Part shown: positions 1 to 43,297 of the stretch, in pieces
Position numbering within the stretch: the stretch's first letter is position 1
How the letters are laid out: the number at the start of each line of letters is the position of its first letter
NCBI GenBank assembly: GCA_020697375.1
Contig: JAJFBJ010000001.1
Coordinates: 1 to 64,000 of the forward strand
DNA: 64,000 nt
Source: Nitrospira sp.
Lineage (GTDB): Bacteria > Nitrospirota > Nitrospiria > Nitrospirales > Nitrospiraceae
Reading direction: 5' to 3'
The notes under the pieces: model-generated
What the model was told of the DNA's origin: nothing
What the model saw: the letters and a program-made list of their open reading frames with translations, nothing else
Databases searched by the model: none
Translations under genes and position numbers: made by a program

Positions 1-93
1 ATTCAGCAACTCGAGGAGTGGATGGCGGAGGCCATGCCTATTTATCAGGCGAAACAACCGGCGCCGAATGGTGATTTGCCTCAATTGCGATGA
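1..93 (+). CDS. C-terminal end of a truncated gene, function unknown
   Basis: An open frame enters at base 1 and stops with TGA at 91-93, giving 30 residues rich in Glu, Gln, Ala and Pro that end in DLPQLR. The tail is too short and too low in sequence information to assign a family. It is followed by the rnpB promoter at 157, so it is probably the last gene of an upstream unit. The frame is open to the window edge; that it is coding is inference. Confidence 0.45.
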   Translation: MQQLEEWMAEAMPIYQAKQPAPNGDLPQLR

Positions 94-156
94 ACCTTCG
101 GAACGTATTGGTAGATCCTTGGACCCACTGAACCCCTCGTCGGTCCTCATGAGTGC

Positions 157-185
157 TTGAAACGCGGGATTCCAAATCTTATACT
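157..185 (+). promoter_or_regulatory. Sigma-70-type promoter of rnpB
   Basis: TTGAAA at 157-162 and TATACT at 180-185 are separated by exactly 17 bases, very close to the housekeeping consensus. A start about 7 bases downstream falls at 190-192, the first base of the P1 helix of the RNase P RNA, so the promoter and RNA boundary support each other. Confidence 0.8.
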
Positions 186-189
186 CGAG

Positions 190-575
190 AGGCGCGCTGG
201 GGGAGCACGGGTGCTCGCCCGTCGAGTCTATCGACGGGAGGAAAGTCCGGACTCCAAGGGCAAGGACGCTGGATAACGTCCAGGCGGAGTGATCCGACAC
301 CTGCACAACAGAGAGCAGACCGCCGATGGCCGGTGCGTTGGAACTTGTTCCATCGCGCCGGATCAGGCAAGGGTGAAACGGTGGGGTAAGAGCCCACCGC
401 GGTGATGGCGACATCAACGGCACGGTAAGCGTCGTCCGGAGCAAGACCAAATAGGGGGATGCCTGCGTCGTTCGCAAGAACCTCGCGGGAAGGCCGGCCC
501 GGCCAAGGTCCTCGGGTAGGTTGCTTGAGGCTCGAGGTAACTCGAGTCCCAGAGAAATGATCACCCCCGCGCGAA
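190..575 (+). ncRNA. rnpB: RNase P RNA, bacterial type A
   Basis: This is the catalytic RNA of ribonuclease P, which trims the 5' leaders of pre-tRNAs. The hallmark GAGGAAAGTCCGGACTCC lies at about 238-255, followed by the ACAGAGAGCAGACCGCC-like core near 307-323, GGGTGAAACGGTGGGGTAAG near 370-389 and the conserved 3' AGAAATGATCACCC near 551-566. The ends are set by the P1 helix: GCGCG and GGGGG at 192-203, with one unpaired T, pair with CCCCC and GCGCG at 564-573. The size of about 385 nt is normal. Its 3' strand of P1 overlaps the last codons of the convergent gene on the minus strand. Confidence 0.95.
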
Positions 576-866
576 GGTATCTTTCACGCGGGACAGAATC
601 CGGCTTATAGGGCTCCTCCAACGCGCTTTTTTTATTGCCTCACGCAGTTCTCCTTCGGTCATCCTTCCAGAAAATTTTTCCCTGCCATCGAAAAGGACGA
701 CCGGTACTCGGTCATTATATTGCGCGAGAAGCCTCTGGTCACTGTCAACATCCACGGTGATGAGATCGAACGAAAGATCCTGCTGCACTTGCATAGCCAC
801 ACGGTAGATCACCCGACACAGGTGGCAGTCGCCGCGGGAGACGATGGTGACGCGAAGCGGTTCCAT
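561..866 (-). CDS. Glutaredoxin-like (DUF836-type) thioredoxin-fold protein
   Basis: A 101-residue single-domain protein with a redox-type CxxC motif, Cys14-His-Leu-Cys17, directly after the first beta strand (LRVTIVS), and the cis-proline signature VPVV near residue 55. This arrangement fits small glutaredoxin-like disulfide reductases of the DUF836 type; the redox partner cannot be told from sequence. The last 35 residues are basic, including ARWRSPISRILSRVK. It stands alone and convergent to rnpB, its stop codon lying inside the P1 helix of that RNA. There is no signal peptide, so it is probably cytosolic. Confidence 0.75.
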   Translation of the reverse strand: MEPLRVTIVSRGDCHLCRVIYRVAMQVQQDLSFDLITVDVDSDQRLLAQYNDRVPVVLFDGREKFSGRMTEGELREAIKKARWRSPISRILSRVKDTFARG

Positions 867-960
867 GGTTCAGTTCATACCGGGAATGAGCCGTCGTGAT
901 CCGTATACCATAAGCCATGCGTGAGTAACATCTTCGCATAAGAAATGCGACCTCACTCTC

Positions 961-990
961 TTGACCTCGCTCAAGATCGGGTGATACCAT
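961..990 (+). promoter_or_regulatory. Candidate promoter for the ilvB operon
   Basis: TTGACC at 961-966 and TACCAT at 985-990 are 18 bases apart, in the otherwise empty 247-base leader between the glutaredoxin-like gene and ilvB. The leader of more than 100 bases that would follow shows no recognised riboswitch or T-box. The call rests on two hexamers only. Confidence 0.35.
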
Positions 991-1113
991 CCGCCATCTT
1001 TCCCTTTGATTTTGCAGTAAGATTGTATCAATCTGTGGCGCACATTTGGCACAGGACCGTGGAGTATTCTGGATGAGGCTGAACATCCTTCGCCATGCGG
1101 AGGGGAGGTAGAT

Positions 1114-2892
1114 ATGAAGATCACAGGGTCGGAAATCATGATCGAATGCCTGAAGCGCGAAGGCGTGAAAACCATTTTTGCGCTGCCGGGCGGCGTCGTA
1201 CTGAAGATTTTCGACATGCTTCATCAGCAAAAAGATATTGAGGTCATTCTGACCAGACACGAGCAGGGTGCCGGCCACATGGCGGAAGGATATGCCAAGG
1301 CCACCGGTAAGGCAGGTGTATGCCTGGTTACGTCCGGGCCCGGCATGACCAATGTCATTACTGCGCTGGCCGATGCCTACATGGATTCGGTTCCGCTAGT
1401 CTGTTTCAGCGGCCAGGTGTCGACGAACTTGATCGGTAACGATGCATTTCAGGAAGCAGACAACATCGGGCTGAGCCGGCCTTGCACGAAGTATAACTTT
1501 CTCGTGAAGGACGTAAACGACCTGGCGACGACCATTAAGGAAGCCTTCTATATCGCCACAACCGGACGTCCCGGACCGGTCCTGGTGGATATTCCCAAGG
1601 ATGTGTCCATGGCCAAGGCGGAATTCACCTATCCCAACTCGGTGGCCATCCGCGGGTACAATCCGACCTATGAAGGCAACAAGTGGCAGATTAAGCAGGC
1701 CGCCGAAGCTATCATGAAGGCGAAGAAGCCGATTCTCTACGTCGGCGGAGGCGTCGTCTTTTCCGGTGCTTCCAAAGAATTGCTCGAATTGGCGGAGATG
1801 ACTCAGATTCCGGTGGATATGACCTTGATGGGCCTTGGCGCGTTCCCGGGCGAGCATCCGCAATCCATGGGCATGATGGGCATGCATGGCACCTACTGCG
1901 CCAATATGGCGGTGCATTATTCCGATCTGGTGATTGCGGTGGGGGCGCGGTTCGATGACCGTGTGACTGGAAAAGTCGCTGAATTTTGCCCACACGCCAA
2001 AGTCATCCATATCGATATCGATCCTACGTCGATCCGAAAAAATATCCACGTGGATATTCCGATCGTGGGCGATTGCAAGGCGGTCTTGCGGGAGTTGAAT
2101 CAAATTCTCAAAGCCACCGTGAACGGGAATCAAAAGGAACTTCGCAAGCCCTGGTGGGATCAAATCCGTGAATGGCAGCAAGCGCATCCGTTGGCCTATC
2201 AACAGGAGGCTGAGGGAGCGATCAAACCCCAACATGTCATCAAGCGCCTGTACGAATTGACGAAGGATCGGGACCCAATCGTGTCGACGGACGTCGGTCA
2301 GCATCAGATGTGGACGGCTCAGTACTTCAAGCTGGCTAAACCGAACCGTTGGTTGACATCTGGTGGCTTGGGTACGATGGGGTTCGGGTTTCCGGCTGCC
2401 ATGGGTGCGCAGGCTGCGTTCAGAAATCGGTTGGTACTCTGTGTCGCCGGCGACGGCAGCGTGCAGATGAATATGCAGGAGATGGCCACCGCGGTCGTGT
2501 CGAAATTACCGGTGAAGGTGATCATTCTGAATAATCGTTTTCACGGCATGGTCCGTCAGTGGCAAGACTTGTTCTATGAAGGGCGCTATGCCTCCAGCTA
2601 TCTCGACACGACCCCAGATTTCGTGAAGTTGGCCGAAGCCTATGGGGCGGTCGGGTTGCGGGCGAACAGCGTCGGCGATCTGGACGCGGTGCTGAAAGTG
2701 GCGATTGAGACGGATAAGCCGGTCGTCGTCGATGTGCCGACATACCCCTATGAGAATTGTTACCCCATGATTCCGGCGGGCGGCTGCAACCATGAAATGA
2801 TCCTGGAAGATCCGCCCGAGTTGAAGAAGAAGCAAGCCGGTCTTCCAAGTGCCGGATCCAACGAAGACAAAGACACGATTTTGACAGCTTAG
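1114..2892 (+). CDS. ilvB: Acetolactate synthase, large (catalytic) subunit
   Basis: This ThDP enzyme makes acetolactate or acetohydroxybutyrate, the first common step of valine, leucine and isoleucine synthesis. It has 592 residues, the normal length. The N-terminal ThDP-binding domain carries the catalytic glutamate in LTRHEQGAGHMAEGYAKA (Glu50). A central FAD-type domain follows, then the C-terminal ThDP/Mg motif starting GDGSVQMNMQE near residue 446 and continuing to NNRFHGMVRQWQ. The start is the ATG after a clear GGAGGGGAGG ribosome site at about 1098-1107. It heads the branched-chain operon; ilvN follows after about 100 bases. Feedback control is expected to come from IlvN. Confidence 0.97.
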   Translation: MKITGSEIMIECLKREGVKTIFALPGGVVLKIFDMLHQQKDIEVILTRHEQGAGHMAEGYAKATGKAGVCLVTSGPGMTNVITALADAYMDSVPLVCFSGQVSTNLIGNDAFQEADNIGLSRPCTKYNFLVKDVNDLATTIKEAFYIATTGRPGPVLVDIPKDVSMAKAEFTYPNSVAIRGYNPTYEGNKWQIKQAAEAIMKAKKPILYVGGGVVFSGASKELLELAEMTQIPVDMTLMGLGAFPGEHPQSMGMMGMHGTYCANMAVHYSDLVIAVGARFDDRVTGKVAEFCPHAKVIHIDIDPTSIRKNIHVDIPIVGDCKAVLRELNQILKATVNGNQKELRKPWWDQIREWQQAHPLAYQQEAEGAIKPQHVIKRLYELTKDRDPIVSTDVGQHQMWTAQYFKLAKPNRWLTSGGLGTMGFGFPAAMGAQAAFRNRLVLCVAGDGSVQMNMQEMATAVVSKLPVKVIILNNRFHGMVRQWQDLFYEGRYASSYLDTTPDFVKLAEAYGAVGLRANSVGDLDAVLKVAIETDKPVVVDVPTYPYENCYPMIPAGGCNHEMILEDPPELKKKQAGLPSAGSNEDKDTILTA

Positions 2893-2995
2893 GGAGAAGG
2901 GTTGATGGCAGGTAGGTATAGCAGGATGTAAGATTGGAGAATCGGCTCTTCTCGACTGCCTGTGCTGCTTTCGGCTATACGCTCTTCATAACTCA

Positions 2996-3514
2996 ATGGA
3001 ACATATTATTTCGGTCACCGTAGAAAACAAATTCGGCGTGTTATCCCGCGTGGCAGGTTTATTCAGCGGTCGCGGATTCAATATCGAAAGTCTCTCTGTT
3101 GCGCCGACGCTCGATCCATCCATGTCCCAAATGACCATTGTGACGTCAGGGGACGACCGGATCGTGGAGCAAATCGTCAAGCAATTGAATAAACTGATCG
3201 ATGTGATCAAGGTCGTGGACCTCAACGAGAGCGAATTTGTTTCCCGGGAGACTGCGTTGATCAAGGTCCATACAAAGTCCGAAGACCGGGCGGAAGCGCT
3301 ACGGATAGCGGACATCTTTCGGGCCAACGTCATCGATTCGACGCCTTCGACTTACACCATCGAGGTGACAGGAGATCCGAAGAAAATCGAGGCCATCATC
3401 AATTTGCTGCAGCCACTGGGCATCAAAGAACTGATTCGAACGGGGCGGGTGGCGATTGCACGTGAAGCGATCAGGACGGCCGTTAGCCAACCAAAGAAAA
3501 TCGCTCGAGAATAG
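2996..3514 (+). CDS. ilvN: Acetolactate synthase, small regulatory subunit
   Basis: A 172-residue regulatory partner of IlvB that carries the valine feedback site. The N-terminal ACT domain (residues about 1-75) begins EHIISVTVENKFGVLSRVAGLFSGRG, and the second half is the ACT-like C-terminal domain common to small AHAS subunits, starting near ETALIKVHTKSEDR. The length is typical. No strong Shine-Dalgarno precedes the ATG; this start is preferred because it begins directly at the ACT strand. It lies between ilvB and ilvC and is presumably co-transcribed with them. Confidence 0.95.
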   Translation: MEHIISVTVENKFGVLSRVAGLFSGRGFNIESLSVAPTLDPSMSQMTIVTSGDDRIVEQIVKQLNKLIDVIKVVDLNESEFVSRETALIKVHTKSEDRAEALRIADIFRANVIDSTPSTYTIEVTGDPKKIEAIINLLQPLGIKELIRTGRVAIAREAIRTAVSQPKKIARE

Positions 3515-3579
3515 TTCACTTGTCTTGTGTGCGATCGCGGTCTTAATCCATCTACGTGCCCATGAACCTTCAGGAGTAA

Positions 3580-4596
<1,017 letters not shown>

Positions 4597-4645
4597 CATT
4601 CAGCCCGGCTCTTCATGGTACGATTTAAAAAGACCTTGGAGGTTT

Positions 4646-5296
4646 ATGGCTGATCGAGCGGTTGGGATACCGATCGTAAAAGAAGGTTTGCCGTTTGTCG
4701 GCGTTCTGGGGTGCGCCACATTGCTTCTCGGTCTGGCAGGCTGGATCGTTCCGGCTGGGATATTGGGAGGTTTCACGCTCTTTACGGCTTGGTTTTTCCG
4801 GAATCCATCCCGAACCGTTCCCCAGGAGCTCAATATGGTTGTGGCATCCGGGGACGGCAAAGTGATCGCGATCGAAGAAGAGTTCGAACCACGCTATTTG
4901 AAGGAAAAAAGTATTCGGGTGACTGTGTTTCTCAACGTGTTCGACGTGCATGTGAATCGAATGCCCTGTGCCGGGACGGTCGAGGGCGTGAGTTATCAGC
5001 CCGGACAGTTTCTCGTGGCCAGTAAGCCGGAGGCGACCCTCCGCAACGAGCAAAATGCCGTGATGCTGAAGACGGCCTCGGGGGCGAAGGTCCTCTGTGT
5101 GCAAGTAGCCGGATTGATTGCCCGCCGCATCGTATGTTGGGTGGGGCAGGGAGACAATGTGCTACGCGGAGAACGGTTTGGACTCATACGGTTTGGGTCG
5201 CGCATGGACACGTTTCTTCCGCTCGGTTCCGCCATCCGTGTTGCGGTGGGTGACCGTGTCAAAGGAGGGGAAACCATCGTGGGGGAACTGCGATGA
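4646..5296 (+). CDS. psd: Phosphatidylserine decarboxylase proenzyme, short type
   Basis: It decarboxylates phosphatidylserine to phosphatidylethanolamine. The 216-residue chain is the short Bacillus/archaeal form. Two hydrophobic stretches near residues 12-50 suggest membrane association. The self-cleavage site that creates the pyruvoyl group is the Gly-Ser in RFGSRMD near residue 185, and the catalytic histidine lies in FDVHVNRMPCAG near residues 100-111. ATG is preceded by CTTGGAGG. Its last four bases overlap the start of pssA, showing coupled expression of consecutive steps of phospholipid synthesis. Confidence 0.95.
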   Translation: MADRAVGIPIVKEGLPFVGVLGCATLLLGLAGWIVPAGILGGFTLFTAWFFRNPSRTVPQELNMVVASGDGKVIAIEEEFEPRYLKEKSIRVTVFLNVFDVHVNRMPCAGTVEGVSYQPGQFLVASKPEATLRNEQNAVMLKTASGAKVLCVQVAGLIARRIVCWVGQGDNVLRGERFGLIRFGSRMDTFLPLGSAIRVAVGDRVKGGETIVGELR

Positions 5297-6099
5297 AATC
5301 ACCGGCCATGCGACAGTCATTCGCCAAGGGCAATCGTAAGCGACAGGCGATGTACCTGATTCCCAATTTATGTACGACGGGGAATTTGTTTTGCGGAGTC
5401 TTTGCAATTTTGTCGGTGTTCAATGGTCAACACTTGGCCGCAGCCATTGCGATCCTGGTTGGAATGATTTTCGACATGTTGGACGGCAAGTTGGCGCGGT
5501 TGACCAATAGTACCGGTCAATTCGGCATCGAGTACGATTCTCTGTCGGATGTCGTCTCATTCGGCGTAGCGCCTGGCGTGCTCATCTATTCTTATGCGTT
5601 GAGCGGACAAGGAATGTTCGGGGTGGCGGTCATGTTCGCCTATGTCGCCATGGGGGCTGTGCGGCTGGCTCGGTTCAACGCCACGGTCAGCACGTCCGAC
5701 AGCAAGTACTTCACAGGGTTGGCCATCCCGGCGGCCGCCGGCGTCATCGCCTCGTTGGTGATCTTCGATCTCCACATTACCCAGATGGGGTCAGAAGTGA
5801 AACCATTGCTAATTTTGGTGATTACGTTCGCCCTGGCGTTTCTCATGGTGAGTACGATCAAGTACCGTAGCTTTAAGGATATGAAATTCAGACGAGGCGA
5901 CCACTTTACCTATCTAGTGTGGGGCATTCTCGCTCTGATGCTGATAGTAGCCTGGCCACAGGCCATGGTATTCGTGACCTTCGCCGGGTACGCTCTTTCC
6001 GGTCCGGTTGCGCGCCTCTGGACCATGATAGCGAAGGGCGCGGGTAAGCAGACCGTGAAGACCGATGCATCGGTTATGGATTCGAGAGAGTCGCAATAG
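5293..6099 (+). CDS. pssA: CDP-diacylglycerol--serine O-phosphatidyltransferase
   Basis: It makes phosphatidylserine from CDP-diacylglycerol and serine, feeding Psd. The 268-residue membrane protein carries the full CDP-alcohol phosphotransferase signature D-x2-DG-x2-AR-x8-G-x3-D-x3-D, from DMLDGKLAR to GIEYDSLSD at about residues 59-84. Several further hydrophobic helices follow. The start overlaps psd by ATGA. The stop codon at 6097-6099 touches the first pairing bases of the leucine T-box leader, so no intergenic promoter space separates pssA from that leader. Confidence 0.95.
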   Translation: MKSPAMRQSFAKGNRKRQAMYLIPNLCTTGNLFCGVFAILSVFNGQHLAAAIAILVGMIFDMLDGKLARLTNSTGQFGIEYDSLSDVVSFGVAPGVLIYSYALSGQGMFGVAVMFAYVAMGAVRLARFNATVSTSDSKYFTGLAIPAAAGVIASLVIFDLHITQMGSEVKPLLILVITFALAFLMVSTIKYRSFKDMKFRRGDHFTYLVWGILALMLIVAWPQAMVFVTFAGYALSGPVARLWTMIAKGAGKQTVKTDASVMDSRESQ

Positions 6100-6356
6100 C
6101 TGTGATGAGGAGTAGTAGGAAGAGCTGACCGAATTGAGAGAGCTGGTGGATGGTGCAAACCAGCCGGTTATCTACCGAACTCGCCTCGGAGCTGGATTTG
6201 TGAAGCCGCTATGGTGGTAATGAATCCCGGGTTGTCCTCGTGATGGACTGAATCGAGGGCGGTTGGATGGAGATAGCTTTTCATCCGCTGCTGAATCAGG
6301 GTGGTACCACGAAGCTCGCAAGGCCTTCGTCCCTGTCCAAGGGCGGAGGCTTTTTT
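6098..6356 (+). promoter_or_regulatory. Leucine-specific T-box riboswitch in front of leuA
   Basis: The leader has the T-box layout. The base of stem I pairs AGCT and GAGG (6098-6101, 6107-6110) with CCTC and AGCT (6184-6187, 6190-6193). The distal AG-bulge region reads GAGAGAGCTGGTGG with GGTGCAAACCAGC (about 6136-6164). The specifier loop reads GAA-CTC-G, giving the leucine codon CTC at 6180-6182, decoded by tRNA-Leu(GAG). The T-box itself is AGGGTGGTACCACG at 6298-6311, followed by a terminator. Uncharged tRNA-Leu should favour the antiterminator and allow leuA expression. The family and specifier logic are known; the folding here was done by eye. Confidence 0.92.
6323..6356 (+). terminator. 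Intrinsic terminator of the leuA T-box
   Basis: GCCTTCGTCCC (6323-6333) pairs with GGGCGGAGGC (6341-6350), including two G-U pairs, and is followed by six T at 6351-6356. It is the terminator alternative of the T-box switch. Confidence 0.88.
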
Positions 6357-6367
6357 ATTGGTAGGAT

Positions 6368-6476
6368 GCTCAAACAGGCTTCCAACTTTGTTCTCGGCTC
6401 GAAAACATTCTCGACGTACCCCTGAGGGTACGCCTCCGGTGTTTTCTCCGCCTGCGGCCGCGTTGGAAGCCTGAGC
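6368..6476 (+). repeat. Intergenic hairpin repeat, copy A
   Basis: A roughly 109-base inverted-repeat element sits between the T-box terminator and leuA. The outer stem pairs GCTCA (6368-6372) with TGAGC (6472-6476) and AGGCTTCCAAC (6376-6386) with GTTGGAAGCCT (6462-6472, sharing one base with the first arm). The inner hairpin is CGTACCC-CTGA-GGGTACG (6415-6432), followed by CCTCCGG and CCTGCGGCCG. Inner parts recur at about 43185-43285 and 49299-49423. If transcribed, the element would place a large hairpin just upstream of the leuA ribosome site. Confidence 0.8.
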
Positions 6477-6502
6477 AACCCGTGCGACAGAGGAGGTAAG
6501 CC

Positions 6503-8050
6503 ATGGCCAGGATGATCAGAATCTTCGACACGACGTTGCGGGACGGTGAGCAATCGCCGGGGGCGAGCATGAATGTCGAAGAAAAACTCATGATCGCTAA
6601 GCAACTGGCGCGCCTCGGCGTAGATATCATTGAAGCGGGATTCGCCTACAGTTCGCCGGGAGATTTCGAAGCGGTGCGCCGAATCGCGCAAGAAGTCGAA
6701 GGGCCGGTGGTCTGCAGTCTCGCGAGGGCCCGGCCTGAGGATATTAGGCGGGCCTTCGAAGCATTGAAAGGCGCGCCAAGGGTCCGCATCCATACCTTTC
6801 TCTCCACGTCGGACATCCATCTCAAGCATCAGTTCCGTATGACGCGGGAGGAAGCGAAGCGGCGTGCCGTAGAGATGGTGCAGTTGGCTCGCACCTATGT
6901 CGACGATGTCGAGTTTTCTCCCATGGATGCCAGCCGGTCAGATCCGGCTTACCTCTGCGAAGTCATTGAAGCGGTCATCTCGGCAGGAGCCGGGACCGTC
7001 AATATTCCCGACACCGTAGGCTATGCCATTCCCCAGGAGTTCGGCGGTCTGATCAAAAGAATCAAAGACAATGTGCCGAATAGCGGGCAAGCGGTCATTT
7101 CCGTCCATTGCCACAACGATTTGGGTTTGGCTGTCGCCAACAGCCTCGCTGCGGTGATGGCCGGGGCTGGTCAGGTGGAATGTACCATCAACGGTATCGG
7201 TGAACGGGCCGGCAATACGTCGCTGGAGGAAATCGTCATGGGCCTGCGGACACGCAAGGATTTGTACGCGGCCGATACGAAAGTCGTCACCGAGGAGATT
7301 TTAAAGACCAGCCGCCTCGTCAGCAAAATCACCGGTATGGTCATCCAGCCGAACAAGGCGATCGTCGGCGCCAATGCGTTCGCCCACACGTCGGGCATTC
7401 ACCAGGATGGCTTGCTCAAGGATAAGACGACCTATGAGATCATGCGGCCGGAATCCGTCGGCCTCGAACAGAACAAACTGGTGATGGGCAAGTTGTCCGG
7501 ACGACATGCATTTCGTCAACGGCTTGAGGACCTGGGCTACAGGTTGACGGAAGAAGAGGTCAATCACGCGTTCGAACGTTTCAAACGACTGGCAGACCAG
7601 AAGAAAGAAATTTACGAGGAAGACCTCGAAGTAATCGTGTCTGAAGAAGTTGCCAAGATATCGGAGCGAGTCCTGTTGAAGTCGTTCCAAGTGGAAAGTG
7701 GAACGAATAAAATACCTAACGCTACAGTTGAGTTGGAAATCGATGGAACATCTGTGACGCATAGCGGAACGGGCGATGGACCGGTGGACGCGGTGTACCG
7801 GACGATTGCCGCCATGACCCATACAAAGAGCAAATTGCTGATGTTTGGAGTGAAGGCCATCACCGGCGGTACGGATGCGCAGGGTGAAGTGTCCGTGCGG
7901 TTGGAGGAGGACGGTCGAACGGTGTCCGGGCATGGAGCCGATACGGATATTATCACCGCCGCGGCACGGGCCTATCTGAACGCCCTCAATAAATTGGCCT
8001 ATTTCGCCGCTAAACAGGCGGAAGGAGTTCAGAGGATCAGCTTGATTTAG
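6503..8050 (+). CDS. leuA: 2-isopropylmalate synthase
   Basis: It condenses 2-ketoisovalerate with acetyl-CoA, the committed leucine step. It has 515 residues, full length. The N-terminal TIM barrel opens with [18 protein letters not shown] (residues 6-23) and has the metal-binding [13 protein letters not shown] near residue 203 and [16 protein letters not shown] near residues 233-248. The C-terminal half ends in the LeuA allosteric dimerisation domain, beginning near [18 protein letters not shown], that senses leucine. ATG follows AGAGGAGG. It is controlled upstream by a leucine T-box and probably also by product feedback. Confidence 0.97.
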
Positions 8051-8159
8051 CCGGCAGGTGCACGATAGATTCCTCAGTCCAAACTCTATGCATTGGTGCT
8101 GGCGGGATTCAGGGACAACTATCGGTGGTCCCTATTGCCAATGTGCGAAGGCTTGTTCG

Positions 8160-8522
8160 ATGCTAAGTACCCATCTGCAACGATGCCCCGAATTTGTAGC
8201 GGGCGACCACACAAGGCTGCGGGAACTGCTTCATCCAGGAAAGACAGCTCTTCAGTTAGGCTATAGCCTGGCTCACGGGATATTGGACCCGGGCAAACAG
8301 TCCCTCTGGCATCGCTTGAAATCATCAGAGGTTTACTATTTCATCGCCGGACACGGAGTGATGCAGGTAGAGGAAGAATCCATGAAGGTGGAGGCCGGCT
8401 CGGTAATTTATGTTCCGCCGGGAGCCAAGCAATCATTATGGAATAACGGAACGGACCCGGTCGAATTTCTTTGCCTGGTGGATCCGGCCTGGACAGCCGA
8501 AGATGAAGCAGTCGTTGAGTAG
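8160..8522 (+). CDS. Small cupin-domain protein in the leucine operon
   Basis: A 120-residue protein with one cupin beta barrel. Motif 1 is seen as G...SLWHRLKSSEVYYFIAGHGVM and motif 2 as GSVIYVPPGAKQSLWNNG. One metal-ligand histidine is recognisable (SLWHRL); the second His of motif 1 is replaced in the EVYYF stretch and motif 2 has Gln where His is common, so metal binding is doubtful. An upstream in-frame ATG at 8058 exists, but ATG 8160 is preferred: it follows GAAGG, and the extra residues are not cupin-like. The gene lies between leuA and leuB, and its role there is unknown. Confidence 0.75.
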   Translation: MLSTHLQRCPEFVAGDHTRLRELLHPGKTALQLGYSLAHGILDPGKQSLWHRLKSSEVYYFIAGHGVMQVEEESMKVEAGSVIYVPPGAKQSLWNNGTDPVEFLCLVDPAWTAEDEAVVE

Positions 8523-8540: not shown

Positions 8541-9617
8541 GTGAAGGCGAGAATCGCAGTCCTGGCTGGAGATGGAGTAGGTCGCGAGATTGTTCCGGAA
8601 GCCGTCAAGGTCTTGAAGGCGGTGGCTGAACGATACGGGCATACGTTCGAGTGTATCGCCGGCGATGTCGGCGGCCATGCCCTCGATAAAGTCGGTGTCC
8701 CGTTGCCGCAGGAGACGCTGTCGATTACGAAACAAAGCGACGCAGTATTGCTTGGGGCGGTCGGAGGTCCGAAATGGGAAGGGTTGGAGTACAGTTTACG
8801 TCCCGAGCGAGCCCTGCTCGGCTTGCGAGAACAGCTCGGGCTCTATGCCAACCTGCGCCCCGCCAGGCTCTATCCGGTTCTCGCCGACGCCTCCACGTTG
8901 CGACGGGATGTCATTGAGGGTATCGACATGCTCGTTATCCGCGAACTCACCGGAGGCATTTATTTCGGCAAACCCAAGGGGATCGAAAAATTGCCCAACG
9001 GCGGAGAACGCGGATTCAATACGGAAGTCTACACGACCGATGAAATCCGTCGCATCGCCGTCGTAGCGTTCGAGGCGGCCCGCAGGCGGCGCAAGAAGGT
9101 CACGTCGGTGGATAAAGCGAACGTGCTGGAATCGTCGGAGCTATGGCGGAGGGTGGTGACGGAGGTGCAGAAAGACTATGCCGATGTGGCCTTGAGCCAT
9201 ATCTATGTCGACAACTGTGCCATGCAGCTGGTGCGCAATCCGCGGCAATTCGACGTCTTGCTCTGCAACAACATGTTCGGCGACATCCTCAGCGACGAGG
9301 CGGCGATGCTCACTGGGTCGATCGGCATGCTGCCCTCTGCGAGCATCGGGGCCAAGGTGGGCCTGTTCGAGCCGATTCACGGAAGCGCGCCGGACATTGC
9401 AGGAAAAAATATCGCCAATCCGATCGCGACTATTGCTTCCGTTGCGATGATGTTGTCATACGCTTTCCGCCTGGAGAACGAAGCCCAGGCGGTTGAGCGA
9501 GCTATTGTCAAGACCCTTGATCTTGGACTCCGCACCAAGGACATACATGCCGAAGGCACGCAACTGGTCGGTACCACCGACATGGGCGATGCCATTGTGC
9601 GCAACCTTGCCTCGTGA
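8541..9617 (+). CDS. leuB: 3-isopropylmalate dehydrogenase
   Basis: It oxidises and decarboxylates 3-isopropylmalate in leucine synthesis with NAD. The 358 residues are full length. [19 protein letters not shown] marks the N-terminus. The substrate region has the [22 protein letters not shown] segment with its arginines near residues 86-107. The metal site aspartates are in VDNCAMQLV and [13 protein letters not shown], and the NAD motif [14 protein letters not shown] lies near residues 281-294. The start is GTG 8541 after GAGAGGAGAT. It follows the cupin gene by 18 bases. leuCD are not in this window. Confidence 0.97.
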
Positions 9618-43150: not shown

Positions 43151-43184
43151 GCTCTATTCCCTCTCGTCCCTCTCGACGGCAGCT

Positions 43185-43285
43185 GAAAATGGCTTCCTGC
43201 CTCGTTCTCGACTCCACCAAATCCTCACCGTACCCCTGAGGGTACGCCTCCGGTTTGGGATGGCCTGCGGCCTTTCCGGACAGCC
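43185..43285 (-). repeat. Intergenic hairpin repeat, copy B
   Basis: It lies in the 147-base gap between thiC and thi4. The inner hairpin CGTACCC-CTGA-GGGTACG (43229-43246) is identical to copy A, and it is preceded by CGTTCTCGACTCC and followed by CCTCCGG and GGCCTGCGGCC as in copy A. The outer stem is short, pairing ATGGCT near 43189-43194 with AGCCAT near 43282-43287. It may act as a processing or partial termination site between thiC and thi4, which is inference. Confidence 0.75.
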
Positions 43286-43297
43286 ATGTTGATCGCC

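Follow-up and report, generated by a model that had tools for sequence, protein, structure and literature searches.

Within the window, the whole 64-kb stretch of DNA that was analysed, a series of branched-chain and phospholipid genes on the plus strand is followed by a T-box leader and by genes for the leucine branch. The series comprises ilvB (acetolactate synthase large subunit, 1114-2892; TIGR00118), ilvN (acetolactate synthase small subunit, 2996-3514; TIGR00119), ilvC (ketol-acid reductoisomerase, 3583-4596; TIGR00465) and psd (phosphatidylserine decarboxylase, 4646-5296; NF003678), which overlaps the start of pssA (CDP-diacylglycerol-serine O-phosphatidyltransferase, 5293-6099; TIGR00473). 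Behind the leader lie leuA (2-isopropylmalate synthase, 6503-8050; TIGR00973), the putatively controlled gene, with a Shine-Dalgarno-like GAGGAGG read in the sequence at 6490-6496, a gene for a small cupin-domain protein (8058-8522; PF07883) and leuB (3-isopropylmalate dehydrogenase, 8541-9617; TIGR00169). All of these genes, also on the plus strand, scored over the cut-offs of their models, and NCBIfam additionally named asd among the window genes. The Nitrospira-like origin that had been proposed for this DNA was borne out.

Upstream of ilvB, a sigma70-type promoter-like site (TTGACC-18-TACCAT, 961-990, plus strand) is the likely start of a long message. The ilvB leader behind it (991-1113) has no Rfam match at cut-off, and a stretch like TCTTTCCCCTTGATTTTTCAG directly after the -10 element is similar in most of the 13 loci compared. 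RNase P RNA (199-623), preceded by a promoter-like site at 157-185, is encoded upstream of the operon.

The T-box leader and its conservation

A cmscan search of the whole window with Rfam models found one T-box, at 6093-6337 on the plus strand (RF00230; 103.8 bits against a cut-off of 93, E 8e-22), aligned over the full length of the model (1-219 of 219). Hits to RybB, BcKCsr2 and SNORD49 were under cut-off and are regarded as chance. The model alignment and its pair list place Stem I at 6099-6192 and the specifier loop at 6111-6117 opposite 6177-6183, where GAA-CTC-G presents the leucine codon CTC at 6180-6182. Stem II follows at 6195-6226, Stem III, which is also a local hairpin, at 6258-6289, and the T-box sequence AGGGTGGTACCACG at 6298-6311. 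The pssA stop codon TAG (6097-6099) ends 7 nt inside the model match and its last base takes part in the first pair of Stem I (G6099-C6192), which is followed by C6100-G6191.

The antiterminator (6298-6334) holds the T-box sequence, in which TGGT at 6302-6305 is where the ACCA end of the tRNA is expected to pair. The 3' strand of the antiterminator, running to 6334, doubles as the 5' strand of a predicted intrinsic terminator (6320-6356; hairpin 6320-6353 with the U-run T6351-6356), and the two share positions 6326-6334. The terminator hairpin has 13 pairs, the most among the 15 terminator-like sites in 1-8200, where shuffled sequences give 6.5 sites. When folded separately, the terminator reaches -21.3 kcal/mol and the antiterminator -9.7 kcal/mol, and therefore termination would be the default. 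Free folding of the entire leader was dropped as proof of a T-box, since its z-score was -1.9 (9 of 200 shuffles folded equally well) and the minimum-energy fold departs from the model.

With a full Stem I, a mutually exclusive antiterminator and intrinsic terminator, and a U-run, the leader has the features of class I, and we regard it as a confirmed, canonical, transcriptional T-box of the leucine type. The original prediction of a leucine T-box with a CTC specifier in Stem I, a readable T-box sequence and terminator, and a first pairing base that overlaps the pssA stop, leaving no intergenic promoter space, holds in all of these points.

Selection as RNA is visible in an alignment of 33 Nitrospira-type leaders, hand-picked for diversity out of 112, in which 38 named pairs were followed. 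Standard pairs occupy 93.9% of the cells, against 87.8% after shuffling and 32-44% when the partners are slid, and 94 cells are changed on both sides, against 34.8 (shuffled) and 12-28 (slid). Such two-sided changes occur in 18 of the 38 pairs. Both the Stem I and the Stem II helices covary; Stem II is paired in 98.7% of cells with six of its seven pairs changed on both sides, and Stem III lies outside the count. Two model helices are paired in just 71-78% of cells, helix 7 (IIA/B) in 71%. The terminator helix is conserved and covaries weakly (one pair, 5 cells against 1.7 shuffled). The specifier and the T-box sequence are among the invariant or nearly invariant columns, and the G/T core of the T-box is invariant in the 33 rows.

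The specifier could be anchored automatically in 118 leaders, of which 115 have CTC and three have CTG (L108, L113, L177); the other 13 of 131 leaders each have a CTC listed near the expected position. The tRNA gene search gave no match in the 64-kb window, and statements on tRNA and on copy numbers rest on the genomes of relatives. The nearest of these (G001), whose LeuA is 94% identical to that of the window, has tRNA-Leu genes with the anticodons TAA, TAG, CAA, GAG and CAG. Its tRNA-Leu(GAG) is read as ending in A-CCA, which suits the UGGU of the T-box. CTG instead of CTC implies another leucine tRNA, and among the matches listed tRNA-Leu(CAG) was seen in one of the three CTG genomes (G377).

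Promoter sites before the T-box

Among the 112 Nitrospira-type leaders, window included, 111 are preceded by pssA and 109 are followed by leuA. In 108 the leader has both neighbours, so that the same leader was indeed found before leuA in related genomes; at the remaining four loci (L111, L208, L209, L210) a contig end truncates the locus. In 54 of 111 loci the stop codon of pssA falls within the stretch matched by the model, and in 14 more it ends at most 20 nt before that stretch. A tight junction is therefore common while the exact overlap is not conserved, and the 7 nt of the window are the largest overlap among the 111. A pssA frame that seemed to run 100-160 nt into the leader in at least six relatives was rejected, as translation shows ordinary stops at the leader start. 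At one locus (L157), T-box and leuA are ~1.2 kb apart, which sets it off from the rest of the Nitrospira-type loci in which leuA was located.

For promoters, the 100 nt directly upstream of the leader were searched and the best pair of TTGACA- and TATAAT-like hexamers was rated, using a score of our own with a threshold of 10, which sees the sigma70 consensus and would miss other sigma factors and sites of poor consensus. Applied to the window alone the scan has no power, because it gives 5 sites in 1-8200 against a shuffle expectation of 5.1; none of those listed lies between psd and leuA. The promoter argument is therefore carried by the comparison across loci. A site scoring at least 10 precedes two of the 111 Nitrospira-type leaders (L104 and L154), which equals the shuffle rate of 1.8%. 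It precedes 11 of the 16 leaders from deeper Nitrospirota and both leaders from Geobacteraceae, for which shuffling gives 11.7%, and in eight of these 11 deeper loci and in both Geobacteraceae it starts 38-44 nt before the T-box match. Between the T-box leader and leuA no site of this score was found in 108 loci.

Two controls were detected by the same score. Firstly, the RNase P RNA gene has a site in 26 of 30 Nitrospira-type genomes, against none of the 30 for the T-box in the same genomes. Secondly, a site lies 148-201 nt upstream of ilvB in all 13 loci compared (12 chosen named loci and the window), and it is the only one scoring at least 10 from ilvB to leuA that all 13 have in common. 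Since the Nitrospira-type leaders have no consensus promoter while the controls are detected, it seems most likely that the T-box lost its promoter in the Nitrospira stem and would be fed by read-through from the ilvB promoter, although the absence of a sigma70 consensus is not the absence of a promoter.

The same T-box could instead be transcribed mainly from a non-consensus promoter lying towards the 3' end of pssA or at its start. The first location is possible, as in four deeper loci (L097, L101, L138, L152) a TTGACA-17-TAAGAT falls within the final ~45 nt of pssA. Sites at the second turn up in the control windows that fall near the pssA start, which speak against read-through: at 800-900 nt upstream, 11 of 110 Nitrospira-type loci score at least 10, ten of them by a TTGCCA-17-AARAAT at the pssA start in one clade and L102 by another site, and at 900-1000 nt upstream 7 of 14 deeper loci do so. 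Nevertheless, we consider such a promoter unlikely as the main source of the message, as 109 of the 111 Nitrospira-type leaders, the window included, are at shuffle level under a score that detects the RNase P and ilvB promoters. The switch had originally been proposed to act either inside a long message or from a promoter in pssA; the comparison favours read-through in Nitrospira and leaves the pssA promoter to the four deeper relatives.

Distribution, repeats and Stem I variants

In a sample of 395 genomes drawn evenly from the phylum, a T-box match was found in at least 125, with at least 58 above cut-off and 67 of the 125 below it; stricter filters were used and five candidates were scored per genome, so these counts are lower bounds. 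One match each was found in 124 of the 125 genomes, and G333 has two pieces at contig ends. The genomes behind 29 of the 80 named leuA loci contain a T-box in 14 of 29 cases, one each, of which 12 are of the Nitrospira type and two are Geobacteraceae. A tree was built for LeuA, not for the RNA, by a quick method with SH-aLRT as its sole support. Its 64 rows cover ~40 of the 131 leaders and 21 named loci, after removal of L069, which comes from the genome of L082, and of rows whose leuA was not usable. The sampled promoterless Nitrospira-type leaders form one clade in it (27 rows, SH-aLRT 95), inside which L011 and L034 are without a T-box motif.

Between the terminator and leuA the window carries a 123-nt copy of a dispersed palindromic repeat (6360-6482, plus strand), and the region 6360-6490 folds at -53.1 kcal/mol. 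In eight relatives, 24, 28, 5, 6, 41, 10, 0 and 2 copies per genome were found among the matches listed. For the 109 leaders with a located leuA, the spacer up to leuA is short in 21 and long in 87, and 58 of the 87 long spacers fit a crude pattern for both repeat arms. Related loci carry different repeat subfamilies at the same spacer position, with members of the family noted among the L083-L210 spacers. A second copy in the window (43172-43295, matched part 43182-43254) lies between thiC and a Thi4-family gene on the minus strand and sits downstream of a TPP riboswitch.

Repeats of this kind also occur within the aptamer. Nine loci (L181, L182, L191, L195, L196, L197, L198, L201, L203) have a hairpin of 128-131 nt inside the 5' side of Stem I and keep the lower Stem I, the specifier and the T-box sequence. 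All nine inserts have opposite-strand matches among the spacer repeats, with a best E of ~1e-9 to 1e-20 at each locus, and the five genomes searched contain 24-40 relatives of the insert. Inserts of 63-70 nt are present in L199, L202 and L209, and only that of L199 matches the repeat (E 1.5e-4). At the same place in Stem I, a further 21 loci are longer by ~18 nt: of the 131 loci, 107 were measured, of which 86 have 17-24 nt and 21 have 39-43 nt. The copies inside Stem I would allow asking how much insertion an aptamer tolerates.

Such large inserts in some of the kin, together with the 67 of 125 phylum matches under the Rfam cut-off, could suggest that the T-box is a decayed, non-functional remnant whose regulation was lost. 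We consider this very improbable, as the specifier, the T-box sequence and both competing helices are retained, with covariation across the group, and each of the 118 anchored leaders has a leucine codon.

The opposite variant, an ultrashort Stem I, was found in L174, L185, L194 and L200, where 37-42 nt (usually at least 82) lie between leader start and specifier and a hairpin of 4-7 bp takes the place of the upper Stem I. These leaders retain the CTC specifier, the T-box sequence and a hairpin with T-run that resembles a terminator; each stands behind a consensus promoter, and in the LeuA tree they form one deep Nitrospirota clade. An ultrashort Stem I is a mark of the translational ileS T-boxes of actinobacteria. 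For the window leader, a class II T-box that acts at the level of translation, on the ribosome-binding site of leuA, can practically be dismissed: nothing was found in its favour, the class II features (ultrashort Stem I, sequestered ribosome-binding site, no terminator) were not found in this leader, which combines a full Stem I with a terminator and its U-run, and leuA starts 147 nt past that U-run, behind a separate hairpin.

Proposed mechanism and known T-boxes

We propose that the window encodes a canonical class I T-box with specificity for tRNA-Leu(GAG) that lies within one long operon and has no promoter of its own, a reading to which we assign a probability of roughly 0.78. RNA polymerase would start before ilvB, transcribe ilvBNC-psd-pssA and meet the T-box ~5.4 kb later. 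With charged leucine tRNA, the terminator at 6320-6356 would form and transcription would stop before leuA. Uncharged tRNA would pair through its anticodon with the CTC specifier (6180-6182) and through its ACCA end with the UGGU of the T-box (6302-6305); the antiterminator (6298-6334) would then form and transcription continue into leuA, the cupin gene and leuB. Because the T-box comes after ilvBNC-psd-pssA, the upstream branched-chain and phospholipid genes would escape the switch and only the leucine branch would be gated.

For the lineage as a whole, we lean towards a history in which a promoter-led leucine T-box lost its promoter in Nitrospira and became an internal valve of an ilvBNC-psd-pssA-[T-box]-leuA operon, where tRNA charging would set the ratio of the leucine branch to the shared genes, and in which one subclade took up a mobile palindromic repeat in Stem I as an extra arm with the conserved parts of the switch intact. 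Through its deeper relatives, this would be a concrete case of a riboswitch passing from a leader with its own promoter to a mid-operon valve. It would also give nitrite-oxidising Nitrospira a tRNA sensor of the Gram-positive type with a central role in amino-acid control.

The original prediction called a T-box in such a genome notable. This has to be qualified, since leuA T-boxes were already published in 2008-2009 for Geobacter sulfurreducens, G. metallireducens and Pelobacter, according to the accessible parts of these papers (Wels 2008, PMC2494555; PMC2700814). For the phylum and for Nitrospira, no T-box report was found in the open-access literature; the accessible part of the TBDB paper does not mention Nitrospira. 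The Geobacter and Pelobacter cases likewise have a T-box before leuA, and the tRNA predicted for G. metallireducens, as given in the accessible text, is also tRNA-Leu(GAG) (PMC2700814). The Geobacteraceae leaders that were fetched carry CTC, and a Geobacter relative (L082) has the same psd-pssA-T-box-leuA order. In contrast to the window, which has neither feature, both fetched leaders follow a consensus promoter at a distance of 40-44 nt, and in L082 pssA and the leader are 146 nt apart.

In Bacillus subtilis, one leucine T-box regulates the whole ilvBNC-leuABCD operon, as described in the accessible text of PMC12452182. The window likewise has a T-box for leucine tRNA on an ilv-leu operon but differs in that the T-box follows ilvBNC-psd-pssA, so that the leu part alone would be gated. 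In the literature searched, the leucine T-box is thus new for this lineage, while the mid-operon architecture has a known precedent. The gltX-(T-box)-cysE operon has a counterpart in B. subtilis. In Bacillus methanolicus it is listed as one operon with the T-box between the genes (PMC4342826, Table 5), and as far as that table goes it resembles the window in a mid-operon T-box gating distal genes only, and differs in being cysteine-specific and in having an aminoacyl-tRNA synthetase as its upstream gene. The probable loss of the promoter and the repeat copies within Stem I lift the present case above a routine leucine T-box.
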